Positions 6,958 to 34,206 of a DNA stretch of 35,696 bases are shown here, piece by piece. Below the pieces are notes generated by a model. The model saw nothing but the letters and a program-made list of their open reading frames with translations, did not search any database and was not told where the DNA came from. The position numbers and the translations under genes were made by a program. Numbering within the stretch: the stretch's first letter is position 1; every line of letters starts with the position of its first letter. Source of the DNA: a virus. The stretch lies in IMG/VR virus record IMGVR_UViG_3300048091_000260, positions 1 through 35,696 of that record. One strand, given 5' to 3'.

Positions 6958-7236
6958 TCAGGCCTCCTCTACCTGATAGCAGCGGTGCGGCAGCGCCGCC
7001 CAGTCGATGTCGCGCATACCCAGCAACGCGTACAGGTGGAGTTCCGGATCAAACTGGGCCCGCGCACGTGCGCCGGTCCAGGCCTCGTTATCGCGCGCCA
7101 CCAGAATCACCGGCAGCGCAAGCGCGTCCTGCAGCTGATGGATGAGGGAACTGGCGCGCGGCTCGGCCAGCTCGCGTCGGTCCACCAATACGACCGCCAT
7201 GCGCTCGTCGCACAGGCGTTGAATCGAATACAACAT
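6958..7236 (-). CDS. CI-operon protein A, paralog of the next gene
   Basis: This is a 92-residue soluble protein starting at an ATG that overlaps the cI stop (TGATG). It has an alternating strand/helix look: MAVVLVDRREL (about 13-23), a helix LIHQLQDAL, the strand LPVILVARD (41-49), then LYALLGMRDIDWAALP near the C-terminus. It shares the RAxxL, PVILV and D(I/L)xW features with the gene downstream. It is translated from the repressor message, so it is a lysogeny-expressed gene. I recognise no family; a small Rossmann-like or receiver-like fold is a guess from the strand pattern. Confidence 0.75.
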   Translation of the reverse strand: MLYSIQRLCDERMAVVLVDRRELAEPRASSLIHQLQDALALPVILVARDNEAWTGARARAQFDPELHLYALLGMRDIDWAALPHRCYQVEEA

Positions 7237-7946
7237 CAAAACCGCTCGCTTTCCTTCCGCACGACGCGGCCAATGACCTTAGTCGTTTCATCGCACGTTC
7301 GTCTGTAGTACCGGCGCTGGTCCGGATTGTCGGATGTCAGCCACCACTGGCCGGCGTCGCGCGTCAGGCGCTTCACCACCGGTTCTCCCTCATAGTTGAT
7401 AGCGTACACGGCGCCGTCGACCAGCTTCTGGTCAGCCGTGTTCACCACGACCAGGTCGCCCTCGTAGAAGGTGGTCTCCATGCTCTCGCCGCGTACAACA
7501 ATCGCCAGGAGTTTGCTGCGGTCGTACCCGTTGCGCTCAACCCAGCTGGTCGGGACCGCGGCAGTAGTCCCGTCAAACGGTTCCGGCTCAACCTCGAATC
7601 CGCTGATGCCGGCCGTGAGGCGCAGACGAACCTTCGGGATAAGGGTTAGCCGTGGGTCGCCTGGGCTGGCCACCTCGACACGCCCAAAGCTGCCAGGCTT
7701 CAGCCCATGCACTGGATCGTCCGGCGCGGCCAAATCGCGCTCACGCAGATCAGCAAGCGACACGCCGAAGAAGTCGGCCAGCGGCTGCAAGGTCTTCGTG
7801 CGCGGATCGTTGCTCTCGCCGGTCAGGATCCGGTGGATGGTCGGCTGCGGCACGCCCGTCGCGCGCTGCATTTCGTATGCATTCGTCTTCCTCTGGGCCA
7901 TCAGCCATTCGAGGTTCTTTTTGACAAGGGAGTCTGTGTTGCTCAT
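7236..7946 (-). CDS. cI: CI-type repressor (HTH plus S24/LexA-like peptidase)
   Basis: This 236-residue repressor maintains lysogeny. Residues about 7-70 are an XRE-type helix-turn-helix (NAYEMQRATGVPQPTIHRIL, 22-41). A linker follows, then the C-terminal S24 domain. Ser155 (in RGESME) and Lys192 (in VVKRL) form the expected Ser-Lys dyad, and A112-G113 (in LTAGISG) is a credible self-cleavage site. These show a RecA-stimulated, SOS-inducible repressor. The start is ATG at 7944-7946; an in-frame ATG further upstream would run through operator 7956-7969. The likely PRM places its transcription start at this ATG, giving a leaderless message as for lambda cI. Two further genes are co-transcribed. 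Confidence 0.93.
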   Translation of the reverse strand: MSNTDSLVKKNLEWLMAQRKTNAYEMQRATGVPQPTIHRILTGESNDPRTKTLQPLADFFGVSLADLRERDLAAPDDPVHGLKPGSFGRVEVASPGDPRLTLIPKVRLRLTAGISGFEVEPEPFDGTTAAVPTSWVERNGYDRSKLLAIVVRGESMETTFYEGDLVVVNTADQKLVDGAVYAINYEGEPVVKRLTRDAGQWWLTSDNPDQRRYYRRTCDETTKVIGRVVRKESERF

Positions 7947-7952
7947 CCCACA

Positions 7953-7981
7953 AATATGCGTTAACGCATACATTCACGCAA
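7953..7981 (-). promoter_or_regulatory. PRM: candidate repressor-maintenance promoter
   Basis: On the minus strand, -35 TTGCGT (complement of 7976-7981) and -10 CATATT (complement of 7953-7958) have 17-bp spacing. Both boxes are weak. The predicted start falls at the cI ATG. The operator at 7956-7969 covers the -10, so high CI levels should shut it off. The weakness of the boxes would fit a promoter needing activation by CI bound at 7988-8001. Confidence 0.5.
7956..7969. promoter_or_regulatory. Operator OR-a (cI-proximal)
   Basis: ATGCG-TTAA-CGCAT is a perfect palindrome (16 bp when the flanking T and A are counted). It overlaps the candidate PRM -10. Its centre lies 32 bp from OR-b. Confidence 0.85.
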
Positions 7982-9427: not shown

Positions 9428-9997
9428 ATGAGCACGACCCACATCACCCCTACCCCTGGCCGCATCGTCTGGTACCGCGGCGCCGACAGCAACATCCGCG
9501 CTGCCATCGTGGCCGCGGCGCACGGCCCCTTCTGCGTCAACCTCCAGGTGTTTGGCCTGAACGCGGACGACCCTGAGCAGGGCTACAAGCACGAAGTCAC
9601 GCACGCGGATCCCGAGCACGAGCCCGGATGCATCCCGTCATGGCACTGGATGCCGTACCAGAAGCAGCAGGCCGAGAAGCACGCGGGCGAGCAGCTGGCC
9701 GCCGGCGCCGCCGGGCAGTCGCCTGCCAGCGGCCTGACCTTCGGTACCGCGCTGACAGCGCTGAAGACTGGCCAGCGCGTGGCGCGCGCCGGCTGGAACG
9801 GCAAGGGCATGTTCGTGTACCTGGTACCGGCCAACAGCTACCCCGCGCAGACCGGCGCTGCGAAGGCCTTCTTCGGCGAAGGCGGCATGGTCCCGTACAA
9901 CGCGTACCTCGCACTCAAGGGTGCCGACGACACCGTGAGCACCTGGGCGCCCAGCGGCAGCGATGCGCTGGCTGAGGACTGGCTGATAGTCGAGTAA
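9428..9997 (+). CDS. Two-domain phage protein with C-terminal Tad2-like (DUF2829) domain
   Basis: This is a 189-residue protein. Residues about 10-78 (GRIVWYRGADSNIRAAIVAA ... PSWHWMPYQ) form a small domain common in phage proteins. An Ala/Gly/Gln linker follows (79-101). Residues 102-189 match DUF2829: LTFGTALTALKTGQRVARAG at 103-122, WNGKGMFVYL at 123-132, MVPYNAYLALKGAD at 154-167, then STWAPSGSD and the closing AEDWLIV. DUF2829 is the family of Tad2, which disables the Thoeris defence system by sequestering its cyclic nucleotide signal. An anti-Thoeris role is thus likely by homology but untested here. The N-terminal partner domain makes it longer than stand-alone Tad2 proteins. It is an early gene, as suits anti-defence. 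Confidence 0.85.
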   Translation: MSTTHITPTPGRIVWYRGADSNIRAAIVAAAHGPFCVNLQVFGLNADDPEQGYKHEVTHADPEHEPGCIPSWHWMPYQKQQAEKHAGEQLAAGAAGQSPASGLTFGTALTALKTGQRVARAGWNGKGMFVYLVPANSYPAQTGAAKAFFGEGGMVPYNAYLALKGADDTVSTWAPSGSDALAEDWLIVE

Positions 9998-21563: not shown

Positions 21564-22229
21564 ATGGCAACGGCCCGCACCATCATCACCCTCGCGCTCG
21601 AGAGCATGAACCGGCTGTCGCCCGGCGAAACGCTCGACGCCGACTTGGCGGCGGCCTGCCTGCGCCGCCTGAACGCGATCGCCGACGACTGGAGCGCGGG
21701 CCGCGACATGACGCCGCAGGACGTGATCGCATCGGGCGCCGTCACCGGTGCGAGCCTGACGCTGGGCGCTGGAGCCTTCGCGGCGATCGGCGCCGGCGAG
21801 GAGATCATCTCGGCCCAGGCCGACGGCTTCCCGATGGCGCCGATCACCATGCAGCAATACAACGACGTCCGCCTGAAGAACCAGGCCGGCCGGCCGGAAG
21901 TCTGGGCCTGGGATGGCCTGGCCACGGTGTATCTGTACCCGGCAGCGAGCGGCAACACGATCAGCCTCATGACACGCGCGCCGTTCGCCAGCTTCGTCGA
22001 CCTCGACACCGCCTATACGCTGCCGTCCGGCTACCAGGGCGCGTTCGCCGCCTCGCTGGCGGTGGCCATGGCCCCGGCGCTGCTCGGCGGCGTGTCGTCG
22101 GGCCTGCTGCTGGCGGAGAAGAAGGCGTTGTTCAACGTGGCCAACGCCAACGTACGGCCCGCGATCCTGACGGCCAATCCGCTGACGCCGCGCCGCGCCG
22201 GCGGCAACATCCTGAAGGGGTGGAACTGA
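21564..22229 (+). CDS. Head-completion/tail accessory factor, P22 gp4-like
   Basis: This is a 221-residue protein in P22 gp4 position. It would close the portal vertex after packaging and form the first tail ring. The N-terminus (TARTIITLALESMNRLSPGE, LAAACLRRLNAIADDWSA) is the helical signature of the gp4/adaptor family. The rest contains VWAWDGLATVYLYPAASGN and a hydrophobic helix pair (about 150-185). It is longer than P22 gp4 (166). Stop and next ATG overlap (TGATG). Confidence 0.85.
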   Translation: MATARTIITLALESMNRLSPGETLDADLAAACLRRLNAIADDWSAGRDMTPQDVIASGAVTGASLTLGAGAFAAIGAGEEIISAQADGFPMAPITMQQYNDVRLKNQAGRPEVWAWDGLATVYLYPAASGNTISLMTRAPFASFVDLDTAYTLPSGYQGAFAASLAVAMAPALLGGVSSGLLLAEKKALFNVANANVRPAILTANPLTPRRAGGNILKGWN

Positions 22230-23614
22230 TGGCCGGCCGCAACTTCGTGGCCTGTATCGGCCCCAGCTATCATCTGGACGACCGCAAGGCAGCGGTACAG
22301 ACAGCGATCAACTGCTACCTCGAGCAGATCGAGGGCCTGGGCGAGACCCGCACGCTGACACAGGTATCGGCGCCCGGGCTTGCCCTGTATCGTTCGCTTG
22401 GCGCCGAGGTACGTGGTCAGCGCAACGTTGAGGGCCGCTGGTTCGTGGTTGCCGGCGACGAGCTGTTCGAGATCGTCTCGGGCGAACCGGTGAGCCGTGG
22501 ATCGCTGTCGAGCGTATCGGGCCCCGTCGGCATGTCGCACAACAACACCCAGCTGGTGATCGTCGGCGGCGCCGGTGGCGACGTCTTCAACCTGAACACC
22601 AACGCCCTCGCACCGATCACCTCCGAGGGCTGGCGCGGGTCGAAGTCGGTCAACTTCATCGATGGCTACACCATCTTCGTCGCGCCCGACACCGACCAGT
22701 TCTACATCACCGCGCTGGACGACTCGAGCACGATGGACGCCCTCGATTTCTCGTCGGCCGACGCGCAGCCCGATAACGTGGTGGCCGCCCTGGTGCTGCA
22801 CCGGGAACTGATCCTTCTCGGCTTGTACACCACCGAGATCTGGATCAACAGCGGCGGCGCGCTGTTCCCGTTCACGCGCTACAACTCAGCCCAGATCGAC
22901 GTCGGCTGCGTGGGCAAGGACGCCTGCATCGTGGCCGCCGACTCGCTGTTCTGGATCGGCCAGACCCGCACCGGCAGTGGCATCGTGTACCAGATGTCGG
23001 GGCATTCGCCAACGCGTGCGTCGACCCGGGCGATCGAGCAGATGCTAGCCAAGTCGACCGACATCAGTGCCGCGACCATGTGGACATACCAGGTCGACGG
23101 GCACGAATTCATCGGCATCAATGCGCCTGGGCTGTCGACCACGCTGGTGTTCGACGCCGCCATGCAGCAGTGGCACGAGCGCGCCGAGTGGAGATCGGGC
23201 TGGGCGCCGCTGCGCGTGACCTCGGTTTGCCTGGTGAACGGCGGGCAGTACGCCGCCGACGCGCTCGGCAACCTGTACCTGATAGACCCGTACACCTACG
23301 CCTACGGCGCTGATCCGCTGGTGCGCGAGCGCACCTGGCCGCACATGGTGAAGGCCAGCATGGAGCCGGTCACCTTCCACGGACTCGAGCTGGCCTGCAC
23401 GACCGGGTATGGCGGCAACGTGACGCTGGAAGTCTCAAACGACGGCGGGTTCAACTTCGGGCCCAAGCTGATGCGCTCGCTGGGCGCCATCGGGCGCTGG
23501 ATGCAGAAGGTGCGCTGGCTGATGCTCGGCACGGCCCAGGACCGGGTATTCCGCATCCGCTGTTCGGATCCGGTGCCGTTCAACATCCACGCCGTGGCGG
23601 TCGACGATGCTTAG
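22229..23614 (+). CDS. Packaged-DNA stabilisation/tail hub protein, P22 gp10-like
   Basis: This is a 461-residue protein, close to P22 gp10 (472). It would be a beta-propeller-like ring that plugs the portal and holds the tail needle and tailspikes. Supporting segments are CIGPSYHLDDRKAAVQTAIN, NCYLEQIEGLGETR, VNFIDGYTIFVAP, SSTMDALDFSSADAQPD and VVAALVLHRELILLG. ATG 22229 is preferred to the upstream in-frame GTG 22220, because it gives the TGATG junction. It overlaps the next gene by 8 bp. Confidence 0.9.
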   Translation: MAGRNFVACIGPSYHLDDRKAAVQTAINCYLEQIEGLGETRTLTQVSAPGLALYRSLGAEVRGQRNVEGRWFVVAGDELFEIVSGEPVSRGSLSSVSGPVGMSHNNTQLVIVGGAGGDVFNLNTNALAPITSEGWRGSKSVNFIDGYTIFVAPDTDQFYITALDDSSTMDALDFSSADAQPDNVVAALVLHRELILLGLYTTEIWINSGGALFPFTRYNSAQIDVGCVGKDACIVAADSLFWIGQTRTGSGIVYQMSGHSPTRASTRAIEQMLAKSTDISAATMWTYQVDGHEFIGINAPGLSTTLVFDAAMQQWHERAEWRSGWAPLRVTSVCLVNGGQYAADALGNLYLIDPYTYAYGADPLVRERTWPHMVKASMEPVTFHGLELACTTGYGGNVTLEVSNDGGFNFGPKLMRSLGAIGRWMQKVRWLMLGTAQDRVFRIRCSDPVPFNIHAVAVDDA

Positions 23615-24092
23615 CGTCCCTCCCTCGACCCGCGTCCCCTTGGGCACCGTGCAGATCGCCGGCAAGGCCTTCGAAGTGTTCGCCTCTCCCGAATGGGCGC
23701 GCTACTTCCTGGCGCTGAACACGCAGGCGCTGTCCAATTCCGCCGCCGGCGGGAGCGCGCTATACGCAATGCTCCTGAACGACGCCGCGGAGGTGTCAGA
23801 CCTAGTTCCCGGCCCGCCGGGCGCGCCTGGGAGCCAGGGCGCCCCCGGCCCGGCGCTGTTCCTGCTGCAGGAGTCCTCGGACGAGCAACCGATGCTGATG
23901 CCGCCCGCGGGCAGCGCCGCCGGCACGCCAGGCAGCTTTTCCACCGTGACGGCAGCGGCCGGCTTCGGTTGCAACGGCAAGGGCGCACAGGGCGCCGCCG
24001 CCCTGAACGCCGCCGCGACCGACCTTGCCACCGCTATCGCGCTGTGCAACCAGCTGCGCGCCACCCTCATCGCCAACGGCATCGCCACTTAA
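23607..24092 (+). CDS. Small virion protein with collagen-like Gly-X-Y repeat
   Basis: This is a 161-residue protein where P22 has the tail needle (gp26), but with no long coiled coil, so it is not a clear homologue. Residues about 70-81 are collagen-like (PPGAPGSQGAPG). Before it is a helical part (about 24-62), and after it is an Ala-rich helical region (about 120-161). Short collagen repeats are known in phage tail proteins, where they trimerise. The function is a probable tail or neck accessory. It lies close to the cupin and oxygenase genes (24474, 24787), and collagen-type repeats are known hydroxylase substrates in other organisms. Confidence 0.7.
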   Translation: MLSVPPSTRVPLGTVQIAGKAFEVFASPEWARYFLALNTQALSNSAAGGSALYAMLLNDAAEVSDLVPGPPGAPGSQGAPGPALFLLQESSDEQPMLMPPAGSAAGTPGSFSTVTAAAGFGCNGKGAQGAAALNAAATDLATAIALCNQLRATLIANGIAT

Positions 24093-24102
24093 AAGGAAAA
24101 TC

Positions 24103-24474
24103 ATGGCATCCAACAAGACATTCCGCTTCGGTCCGCTGCCGCTGACCGCGGTGCTCACCACCAACCTGCTCAATCCGCCGGCGGCGGCTGGGGGCGTGAA
24201 CGCCGGCGCGTCGCCGCAGTACATCATCCTGAAGCACCTGCGCATCACGAACAAGAGCGCGGCTGCGGCATCCTTCTCGACCTGGCTGGGTGCAAGCGCG
24301 GCGAACGCCGCTGGTACCGAGGTGATCGGCCAGGGCCAGGTCGTCTCCGCGAACAGCTCCTACGACTGGTACGGTCTGCTGCGCATCGACGCGGTCGACT
24401 TCCTCGTGGGCGGGGCAAGCGTCGCAGGCGCCCTGTCCATTTCGGGCGAAGGCGAGATTGGGGTGGCCGGCTGA
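24103..24474 (+). CDS. Virion structural protein, unknown
   Basis: This 123-residue protein has a good Shine-Dalgarno (AAAAGGA). The sequence is mostly beta (NKTFRFGPLPLTAVLTTNLL, QYIILKHLRITNKSA, SSYDWYGLLRIDAVDFLVGG), with a Gly/Ala/Ser-rich character, like tail or capsid-decoration proteins. Similar short proteins occur among P22-like tail genes, but I recall no assigned function. Its stop and the cupin start overlap (TGATG). Confidence 0.65.
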   Translation: MASNKTFRFGPLPLTAVLTTNLLNPPAAAGGVNAGASPQYIILKHLRITNKSAAAASFSTWLGASAANAAGTEVIGQGQVVSANSSYDWYGLLRIDAVDFLVGGASVAGALSISGEGEIGVAG

Positions 24475-24794
24475 TGAACATCGAATTCCACGGCGGCGAC
24501 ACGCAGTCGGGCAACGTGTTTGCGGTCGAGACCCGCGCGGAGGCCGGCTACATGCTGGAATCCCACGTGCACGCGCACTCGCACATGTCGGTGTTGGTGT
24601 CGGGCACCGCCGACGTGACGATCGACGGCCAAACCGAGCGCATGACCGGCTACAGGCTGCTGACCATCCCGGCCAACACCAGGCACAGCGTCCAGGCAGT
24701 GACGGATGTGGTCTGGCTGTGCCTCTGGGCTGACGCGATCGCGCCAAAGCTGCTGGCGGAGGAATCCCTGAAATTGGTGCCTGCTCATGACTGA
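24474..24794 (+). CDS. Small cupin-domain protein
   Basis: This is a 106-residue single-domain cupin. Motif 1 is HVHAHSHM at 31-38, with metal-ligand candidates H31/H33/H35/H37 followed by an acidic GTADVTIDG loop. Motif 2 is GYRLLTIPANTRH at 59-71, ending in the conserved H71. The usual Glu of motif 1 is not obvious. It is embedded between structural genes and overlaps the oxygenase gene by 8 bp, so the two are co-translated. It may bind a metal or small molecule, or act as an auxiliary factor of the oxygenase. A cupin gene in the tail module of a P22-like phage is unusual. Confidence 0.8.
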   Translation: MNIEFHGGDTQSGNVFAVETRAEAGYMLESHVHAHSHMSVLVSGTADVTIDGQTERMTGYRLLTIPANTRHSVQAVTDVVWLCLWADAIAPKLLAEESLKLVPAHD

Positions 24795-25326
24795 AAAAAT
24801 CAAACTGATCGCGAAGGATTGGGATGTCGGGCCGATCCTCTGGAAGCTGCACAGCCACCCTGATCTCTGGAACCAGCACACCGCCCGGACGGCAAGCAGC
24901 GACAGTCCCCACTATGGCCTGGATGACATCTGGGCCCGGTTCGGCGACGCGTCGCGCGCGCATGACGGCCAAGCGCACCAGGCTCGCTGGTACCCGGCCG
25001 CCGAACTGCTCGGTATCAAGCAGATGTGTCATGACCTGATGCACATGGTTCACGGCGTCGAGCTGGGCGGCGTGCTGATCACCCGGATCCCACCGGGCGC
25101 CAAGTGCCGGCCGCATACGGACCCGGGCTGGCATGCGGGGTATTACGACAAGTTCGCCGTGCAAATCACGAGCGCGCCCGGCCAGCGCTTTTGCTTCGAG
25201 GGCGAGAGCCTCGAAACCCGCCCGGGCGATGTGTACTGGTTCGACAACCAGCATCTGCACTGGGTCGACAACGACACGCCTTACGAGCGTATTTCCATGA
25301 TCGTTTGCATTAGAAGGGAGCACTGA
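24787..25326 (+). CDS. Aspartyl/asparaginyl beta-hydroxylase-like 2-oxoglutarate/Fe(II) oxygenase
   Basis: This is a 179-residue non-haem iron oxygenase fold. The metal triad is visible as H110 and D112 in RPHTDPGWH (109-116), and H158 in QHLHWVDN. R168 (YERISM) is the probable 2-oxoglutarate anchor. The order HxD...H...R fits the AspH family rather than the prolyl hydroxylases. It would hydroxylate Asp, Asn or a similar residue of a protein, using oxygen and 2-oxoglutarate in the host cytoplasm. Late expression and position suggest a virion protein substrate. It is co-translated with the cupin. The substrate is unknown. Confidence 0.82.
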   Translation: MTEKIKLIAKDWDVGPILWKLHSHPDLWNQHTARTASSDSPHYGLDDIWARFGDASRAHDGQAHQARWYPAAELLGIKQMCHDLMHMVHGVELGGVLITRIPPGAKCRPHTDPGWHAGYYDKFAVQITSAPGQRFCFEGESLETRPGDVYWFDNQHLHWVDNDTPYERISMIVCIRREH

Positions 25327-25327
25327 T

Positions 25328-26068
25328 ATGCCTTGGGGATTTGCAGCAGCCGCGGCCGGCGCGATCGGTGGCGCGCTCATCACAAGCGATGCGGCAAGCG
25401 ATGCCGCGGACCAGCAGGCGCAGGGCACGGCCAATGCATTGTCCGAGCAGCAGCGTGAGTTCGATATTGCCCAGGCCAACCAGGCACCCTATCTGGCAGC
25501 CGGCAAGACCGCACTCAGCACGCTGGCGGCAGAGAACGACGTGCCGCTCGATCAAAGCCAGGTGCAGCTGGACCCGGGCTACCAATTCGGGCTGCAGCAA
25601 GGCCAGCAGGCAATTAACCGGCAGACGGCGGCAGCAGGTGGCCGGATTTCCGGTGCTGCGCTGAAGGCAGCCGCGCAATACGGTACCGACTATGCGACCA
25701 CAGGCTACAGCGCCGCGTACTCACGGGCGAACCAGGCCCGTACGGACCGGCTCAACCGCTTGGCGGCGCTGGCCGGCATCGGGCAGACCGCCACACAGAA
25801 CGTCAACGCGGTCGGGGCGAGCACCGCCAGTACAAACAGTGCGCTGATGACGGCAGCCGGCAATAACGCCGGCGCTGCCAGCCTTGCCCAAGGCAACATC
25901 TGGGGCAATGCTACCAACCAGCTCGCGGCACTGGCCGCGCGCTACACGCCGGGAAGCACCTCGACCGAACTGCAGACCACCGGCAGTGCCGGAAGCTACA
26001 ACTACACGCCCGAGGCGCAGTCCATCGACACGGGCGCACTGAGCGACATGAGCTGGTTCAATGGATAA
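25328..26068 (+). CDS. Ejection protein, P22 gp7-position
   Basis: This is a 246-residue protein rich in Ala, Gln and Ser. The N-terminal hydrophobic stretch (FAAAAAGAIGGALITSDAAS, 5-24) and the segments QREFDIAQANQAPYLAAGKT and GYQFGLQQGQQAINRQTAAA, then GRISGAALKAAAQYGTDYAT, match the pattern of small DNA-ejection proteins (P22 gp7, 229 residues). Such proteins travel in the virion and help DNA cross the envelope. Shine-Dalgarno GGGAG precedes the ATG, and it starts one base after the oxygenase stop. Confidence 0.8.
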   Translation: MPWGFAAAAAGAIGGALITSDAASDAADQQAQGTANALSEQQREFDIAQANQAPYLAAGKTALSTLAAENDVPLDQSQVQLDPGYQFGLQQGQQAINRQTAAAGGRISGAALKAAAQYGTDYATTGYSAAYSRANQARTDRLNRLAALAGIGQTATQNVNAVGASTASTNSALMTAAGNNAGAASLAQGNIWGNATNQLAALAARYTPGSTSTELQTTGSAGSYNYTPEAQSIDTGALSDMSWFNG

Positions 26069-33153: not shown

Positions 33154-34206
33154 ATGAAAAACGTCAGGGCCGCGAGAATGCAAGGAATCGATGCTCTGCG
33201 GGGCATTTCTGCGCTGCTGGTCCTTGCCCAGCATATTGTCCCGTTACACTGGCTGGGCCAAGGGATGCTTTCCGACGGCAATGACTTTTATCTTGATTTG
33301 GGCCGAATAGGCGTCGCGACGTTTTTTCTTATCAGCGGTTTCATCATCCCGTTTAGCATCAGCCCGCGATCCACATTAAGGTCTTTCTGGATGTCCCGCT
33401 TCTTTCGCCTGTGGCCGGTCTACATCGTCACCATCCTCCTGGCCGTGATCATGGGCGCTGACGGCGCGCCGAAGCTGAGCTTTTCCGAGATTCTCGTCAA
33501 TTTCACAATGTTTCAGCAGTTCGTCGGCGTGCCCAACGTGCTCGGCGTCTTCTGGACGCTGCAGATCGAGCTGGTTTTCTATTTCCTTGTGTCGGGCATG
33601 CTGCTGCTGGGTGTGGTGCACGACCGGAAGGCCGTGCGCGCGGCGTTCGGCTTGAGCGTCGTGCTGGCTCTGGCGATGGCCGCGGGCCGCTTCGCCATCG
33701 GCGTAAAACTCCCGGTGGCCCTGCCCATCGGCCTGATGCTGATGTTCTTCGGTGCCGAGCTGCGCCTGGCCCGGCAGGCAGACGAAGCCTTACCGGCAGC
33801 GCGCATTGCCCACCTGCTGGCCAGCCTGGCCGTCGTCTGCCTGCTCGGCTACAGCCGGGGTGTCGGCGACAACCCCTATCGGTGGATTCTGGCCTACAGC
33901 CTCGGTGTCGTCCTGTTCCTGCACTTCGAACGCGTCAAGAACATGCCGGCGGCGCTGGTGTTCCTGGGCACGATCAGCTATTCGATTTACCTGCTGCACC
34001 CGCTGGTCATTTCGATCTTCGGGAATGACGAACCCATCACTGCGGTCTGGATCGTGAGCTGCACCCTGCTCGCCGCGACCGCCTCCTACTACTTCATCGA
34101 GAAGCCATTCCAGCGGATCGGCAAGCGCCTCGGCTCGGCGGCACCAGCCGGCGCCGCGCAGGCTCAGCCAGCACGCGAGCTGCTATCCCTTCCTGCACGC
34201 CGCTGA
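33154..34206 (+). CDS. Acyltransferase-3 family membrane protein (O-antigen/surface acylation)
   Basis: This is a 350-residue polytopic inner-membrane protein of the OafA/acyltransferase-3 family. It has the R-x10-H motif (ALRGISALLVLAQH, 14-27), then GVATFFLISGFII, FFRLWPVYIVTILL, an EL-pair segment (FGAELRLARQ) and about nine to ten hydrophobic helices. It would transfer an acetyl or other acyl group to a surface sugar, for example the O-antigen. Phage-borne members of this family change the receptor of their host and so exclude other phages (serotype conversion). A start at ATG 33154 fits, but no Shine-Dalgarno is seen; ATG 33178 is possible. The gene lies at the end of the prophage, as morons do, and probably has its own promoter. 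Confidence 0.88.
   Translation: MKNVRAARMQGIDALRGISALLVLAQHIVPLHWLGQGMLSDGNDFYLDLGRIGVATFFLISGFIIPFSISPRSTLRSFWMSRFFRLWPVYIVTILLAVIMGADGAPKLSFSEILVNFTMFQQFVGVPNVLGVFWTLQIELVFYFLVSGMLLLGVVHDRKAVRAAFGLSVVLALAMAAGRFAIGVKLPVALPIGLMLMFFGAELRLARQADEALPAARIAHLLASLAVVCLLGYSRGVGDNPYRWILAYSLGVVLFLHFERVKNMPAALVFLGTISYSIYLLHPLVISIFGNDEPITAVWIVSCTLLAATASYYFIEKPFQRIGKRLGSAAPAGAAQAQPARELLSLPARR

Follow-up and report, generated by a model that had tools for sequence, protein, structure and literature searches.

We analyzed a virus contig of 35,696 bases (IMG/VR record IMGVR_UViG_3300048091_000260), hereafter the window, in which four contiguous open reading frames (ORFs) lie at positions 23607–25326 between a gp10-like and a gp7-like gene. 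The last two encode a cupin and a 2-oxoglutarate (2OG)/Fe(II) oxygenase, and the conserved core of this block is the cupin, the oxygenase and gp7, a protein believed to open a way for the DNA through the outer membrane of the bacterium. From the sequence comparisons, we tentatively propose, at slightly less than an even chance, that the cupin and its oxygenase neighbour make up a conserved enzyme module, which would finish the adjacent ejection protein gp7 ahead of packaging. The active sites of this module are intact and invariant, the gene order is kept, the oxygenase is tied to the metal site of the cupin, and both enzymes are tied to a Met-Pro-Trp start of gp7.

The last of these ties points to the candidate substrate. 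gp7 starts with Met-Pro-Trp, rarely with Phe or Leu in third place, in 55 of the 57 genomes with the oxygenase directly upstream (script count; L068, counted among the two misses, in fact starts MPW), and the same start is found in 4/4 genomes with the four-histidine cupin alone. It occurs in none of the 22 genomes with a degenerate cupin and in none of the 38 with neither enzyme. The codons of Pro2 differ (CCA, CCG, CCT and CCC), which places the conservation at the level of the protein. On a gp7 tree built without the gp7 N-terminus, the traits change jointly in an average of 8.7 of nine independent pairs, with none opposed (p about 0.004); on the gp10 tree, 8.1 of ten independent pairs change jointly, again with none opposed (p about 0.008). 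When all columns of gp7 and gp10 are scanned, W3 and P2 rank first by about eight orders of magnitude, on p-values that ignore relatedness and serve for ranking only. We also searched viral contigs blindly for DNA encoding Met-Pro-Trp-(Gly/Ala)-Ala-Ala-Ala-Ala, a pattern independent of oxygenases. Of the candidate ORFs preceded by at least 700 bases of sequence, 54 in all, 50 have an oxygenase just upstream; some of the contigs concerned were already known. The previously unseen contigs contain 39 oxygenases with a median identity of 40% to that of the window; 38 have the full motif, and the remaining one has no letters at the first two motif positions.

The oxygenase scores 29.7 bits against PF05118, above the curated threshold of 22.6. 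A preliminary description of this DNA had noted an intact HxD...H...R set, and this is borne out: H110, D112, H158 and R168 are present and invariant across the aligned relatives. From knowledge of the family, we take His110, Asp112 and the distal His158 to be the iron ligands and Arg168 to bind 2OG. The AlphaFold model (pLDDT 93.7) shows the double-stranded beta-helix fold of 2OG hydroxylases, its top PDB matches are 2OG hydroxylases, and on this model the protein is a 2OG oxygenase. The nearest solved fold is L-proline cis-4-hydroxylase (PDB 4p7w; E 3.5e-9, TMq 0.71, 13% identical); PHD2, the PBCV-1 collagen prolyl hydroxylase (PDB 5c5t) and human AspH are also among the closest. A nearest fold that acts on free proline would be compatible with an N-terminal proline as substrate, although this is only a hint. 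A PDB sequence search with the oxygenase returned noise only, and membership of LpxO was rejected, since the equivalog cut-off of NCBIfam NF033391 is not reached (25.1 bits against 500). Relatives of 45–85% identity are found on 63 viral contigs; others lie on 14 bacterial contigs, mostly of Burkholderiales (such as Variovorax, Hydrogenophaga, Paraburkholderia and Cupriavidus), and many of these bacterial loci are flanked by recognisable phage structural genes. Wherever gp10 and gp7 are both recognisable, the oxygenase sits between them. Oxygenase loci without a cupin often have a conserved ORF of 60–65 residues directly upstream, with the motif AWDxYFASVxSMxLHPGTTRD (Table 1).

Regarding the cupin, 47 of the 63 viral loci have it immediately before the oxygenase, and L094 has the swapped order oxygenase, cupin, gp7. 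The cupin of the window scores 34.7 bits against Cupin_2 (cut-off 27.2). Its predicted metal-binding histidines are all present and are kept in all oxygenase-linked cupins; over all loci, the four histidines are found in 59/59 cupins near an oxygenase and in 8/36 cupins elsewhere. Three of these eight four-histidine cupins without an oxygenase lie outside any recognised tail block. The previously unseen contigs of the blind search, an independent later sample, contain 42 cupins, and the four-histidine site is complete in every one (42/42). Cupin relatives also precede gp7 without an oxygenase in Rhodoferax P26218, DSL-LC05, VvAW1, Vibrio 36E38.1 and others, and the metal ligands of the relatives in oxygenase-less phages are mostly gone. 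A tree test of the oxygenase against the cupin metal site is almost always concordant, with three independent supported pairs and none opposed, and is not significant alone (p 0.25). Because the phylogeny offers only three independent pairs, this tie rests mainly on the counts. The cupin had been suggested as a helper or second enzyme, and a partner role holds up, since four-histidine cupins accompany the oxygenase and the others have mostly lost the site. Cupin relatives of the Xanthomonas phages Elanor and Mallos, which lie beside replication genes, and of Variovorax phage V45iii, with no recognised slot gene nearby, were set aside as evidence on the slot between gp10 and gp7.

In the scheme that we propose, the cupin, the oxygenase and gp7 would be produced together late in infection, and host methionine aminopeptidase would expose the Pro-Trp end of gp7. 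The oxygenase would then hydroxylate this end, most likely at Pro2, while the four-histidine cupin may assist or may carry out a second metal-dependent step. The modified gp7 would be packaged and would later act in the outer membrane during DNA ejection. The record of P22 states that the gp7 N-terminus is cleaved by the host protease OpdA; processing at this end is therefore already known.

This proposal is supported by the content of the same slot in other phages, which carry group-transfer enzymes there. In a gp10-anchored, non-random sample of at least 80 contigs found with a single pattern, the slot contents among the sampled contigs listed include cupins, GNAT acetyltransferases (best Pfam match 5.7e-12), sulfotransferases (2.8e-4) and relatives of P22 gp14. 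For example, a GNAT gene adjoins the cupin relative bbp23 in Bordetella phage BPP-1, and three oxygenase-less phages encode a fusion of the cupin with a SET-like domain (6.4e-6 in ct1fd225, with weaker matches in its two counterparts). In P22, gp14, the product of a classical head-assembly gene, precedes gp7; its model (moderate, pLDDT 69) has a GNAT fold, and its top PDB matches are acetyltransferases only, SpeG among them. In T7, gene 13 precedes gene 14, the product of which is the counterpart of P22 gp7 (PMC8954989). P22 gp14 and T7 gp13 share with the present module the position before the first ejection protein, and P22 gp14, as modelled, is of another enzyme family. A profile comparison of P22 gp14, T7 gp13 and GNAT sets gave no clear link between T7 gp13 and GNAT. 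A slot enzyme that modifies the adjacent ejection protein would be the most economical account of this arrangement. It is a possible but doubtful extension that slot enzymes of short-tailed phages modify the N-terminus of the first ejection protein for its work at the outer membrane, here through a 2OG hydroxylase and a four-histidine cupin acting on Pro2, and elsewhere through an acetyltransferase (perhaps P22 gp14), a SET–cupin fusion or a sulfotransferase.

Several points weigh against gp7 as the substrate. In the PfAn1-like group (L003, L212, L237, L244 and L271), the oxygenase is followed by an acetyltransferase-like gene, gp7 starts with Met-Val-Ala and the motif is found in 0/5. The phages with a four-histidine cupin and no oxygenase retain the motif (4/4). 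T7 gp14 begins with Met-Cys-Trp-Ala-Ala-Ala and has no such enzyme alongside, which suggests that part of the N-terminal motif predates the module. Since gp7 adjoins the oxygenase, part of the correlation could stem from the junction being exchanged as one block. Lastly, the modelled fold of the oxygenase gives no choice among Pro, Asp/Asn and other substrates.

In a rather unlikely alternative, the oxygenase has a different virion protein as its target (gp10, gp20, gp16, the tailspike or any of the small slot proteins), and the Met-Pro-Trp of gp7 is a linked marker of the exchanged cassette. These candidates are all products of this one block, virion genes always adjoin the oxygenase, and in the PfAn1-like group an oxygenase is present but the gp7 motif is missing. 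However, no column of gp10 associates as strongly as P2 and W3 of gp7, the joint changes persist on the gp7 tree without the N-terminus, and the slot proteins encoded before the cupin vary or are missing. The preliminary description had proposed hydroxylation of a virion protein, perhaps the collagen-like one. Modification of a phage protein is indeed favoured over a metabolic role, but the pointer to the substrate is the first residues of gp7. The collagen-like protein has a single run of five Gly-X-Y triplets (GPPGAPGSQGAPGPA) and no Pfam match at E 1, so that neither a collagen domain nor a long repeat is found. Hydroxylation of its Pro or other Gly-X-Y residues is highly improbable. Giant viruses offer precedents for viral collagen hydroxylation (PMC9546862), the close relatives of the window have five or six triplets at the same place, and Gly-X-Y is absent from all 63 oxygenase-less loci. 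Against this, the run is short, and it is present in just 8/62 oxygenase loci, the window included and nearly all of them close relatives, leaving 54/62 without it. The family of this protein is found in nine loci, and L015, L048, L049, L065, L066 and L068 have gp10 and the cupin without a separate gene between them. From this distribution, we regard the collagen-like protein as a local passenger and rule it out as a constant substrate. The block elsewhere proves to be conserved in its cupin, oxygenase and gp7 and not in its collagen-like protein.

A target outside the particle is improbable. Here, the pair would have a host metabolite or the cell surface as its target, such as free proline or, in the manner of LpxO, lipid A, and its position in the late block would be accidental. 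The substrate of the nearest solved fold and a weak, sub-threshold LpxO match (about 25 bits against a cut-off of 500) are in line with this, but the position between gp10 and gp7 is maintained across divergent phages, the 179-residue oxygenase fails the LpxO cut-off and its model has no membrane helix, and the tie to the gp7 N-terminus is left unexplained. An oxygenase with an invariant active site, tied to late virion genes in many contigs, fits modification of a phage protein better than metabolism. We also consider it quite improbable that the two proteins have a structural or assembly role and merely borrow these folds. In PHROG, cupin relatives are labelled 'short tail fiber' or 'tail fiber adhesin', and relatives without metal ligands remain in place, so that branch needs no catalysis. 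Yet these labels have no experimental test behind them, and the oxygenase keeps its iron and 2OG ligands without exception down to about 30–40% identity, as would be expected of a working enzyme; invariant catalytic residues argue against a purely structural role.

Table 1. Positions of the genes and sites discussed, in the window and in related contigs (aa, amino acids)
Feature	Position	Strand	Evidence or remark
gp10-like head closure protein, upstream border of the slot	22220..23614	+	phrog_578 1.7e-91
Gly-X-Y protein, 161 aa, tail-needle position	23607..24092	+	five Gly-X-Y triplets at 23811-23855
Small protein, 123 aa	24103..24474	+	family present in 26 loci
Cupin, 106 aa	24474..24794	+	Pfam Cupin_2 E 1.4e-8; four-His site His31, His33, His37, His71
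2OG/Fe(II) oxygenase, AspH-like, 179 aa	24787..25326	+	PF05118 Asp_Arg_Hydrox E 6.9e-7
Oxygenase His110-Thr-Asp112	25114..25122	+	conservation; His158 at 25258-25260, Arg168 at 25288-25290
gp7-like ejection protein, proposed substrate	25328..26068	+	phrog_598 DNA ejection 5.7e-25
gp7 Met-Pro-Trp start, proposed modification site	25328..25336	+	tied to oxygenase or four-His cupin
Sulfotransferase-like genes	L224:6237-7304, L238:3808-4875		directly before gp7; gp10-anchored sample
SET-like-fused cupins	L072:4503-5378, L073:4356-5240, L097:4977-5738		metal ligands lost; gp7-adjacent where gp7 recognised
P22 gp14 and relatives	L100:4001-4453; relatives e.g. L256:6980-7411		L100 copy 100% identical
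ORF of 60-65 aa upstream of oxygenase	L019:7828-8010, L020:7810-8007, L042:7813-8001, L069:7819-8001		

The block belongs to a P22-type virion region: the window encodes P22_portal (2e-122) and P22_CoatProtein (2e-41) matches in addition to the gp10-like and gp7-like genes. The four genes between these borders had been described as overlapping or nearly contiguous, and the ORF positions agree, with overlaps of 1–8 nucleotides or gaps of 1–10 nucleotides between adjacent genes. The 123-residue protein has no Pfam or PHROG match. Megablast found no close DNA relatives of the window among isolated phages. Elsewhere in the window, a CI-type repressor with an S24 peptidase domain (7236–7973, minus strand; 7.7e-20) suggests a temperate phage. 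A membrane acyltransferase (Acyl_transf_3, 1.7e-25) at 33154–34206, past the lysis region, is possibly a surface-modifying lysogenic conversion gene, and the ORF at 9428–9997 has a C-terminal Tad2-like domain (Thoeris anti-defence family, 5.1e-23).

We compared the module with known systems. The oxygenase shares the Pfam family and the 2OG-hydroxylase fold with the AspH superfamily (PF05118), including human AspH. Human AspH has a two-histidine site, whereas the phage enzyme is a single 179-residue domain with an HxD site and no tetratricopeptide repeats (TPR), encoded in a phage virion block. L-proline cis-4-hydroxylase, which has the closest fold, is larger and acts on free proline. The lipid A hydroxylase LpxO belongs to the same superfamily and gives a weak local match, while the model of the phage oxygenase has no membrane helix. 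The cupin shares the Cupin_2 family with the manganese cupin TM1459, which has a four-histidine site, and differs in standing beside a 2OG oxygenase and gp7. Virus-encoded 2OG hydroxylases are familiar: mimivirus has collagens and collagen-modifying enzymes, and PBCV-1 has a collagen prolyl hydroxylase (PMC5802723, PMC9546862). Those enzymes belong to giant viruses of eukaryotes and have collagen substrates, whereas collagen is not constant in the phage module. AspH-like genes have also been annotated in phage DC33, cyanophages and pelagimyophages (PMC12195039, PMC3037559, PMC7029224); they share the broad family name, and in the portions of these papers that we consulted they are linked neither to a cupin nor to the N-terminus of gp7. 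The taxonomy line of Limnohabitans phage DC33 (PQ492659.1, L002) reads Inoviridae, yet its paper describes 39 kb of double-stranded DNA, an icosahedral head and a tail.

In the open-licence papers searched, we found neither a cupin–oxygenase–gp7 module nor a tie of such a module to the N-terminus of gp7, and a search there for hydroxylation in virions gave nothing. Modification of a virus protein by a virus-encoded enzyme is thus known, and what is new is the enzyme pair, its place and its probable target. The proposal names a specific peptide, the N-terminus of gp7. If it is true, no earlier case is, to our knowledge, on record in which a phage encodes the hydroxylation of one of its virion proteins. 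The presence of gene 14 in the slot of P22, the function of which is explained in no open-licence paper that we found, would then also have a reason open to testing, and the ejection apparatus would gain an unsuspected maturation step.

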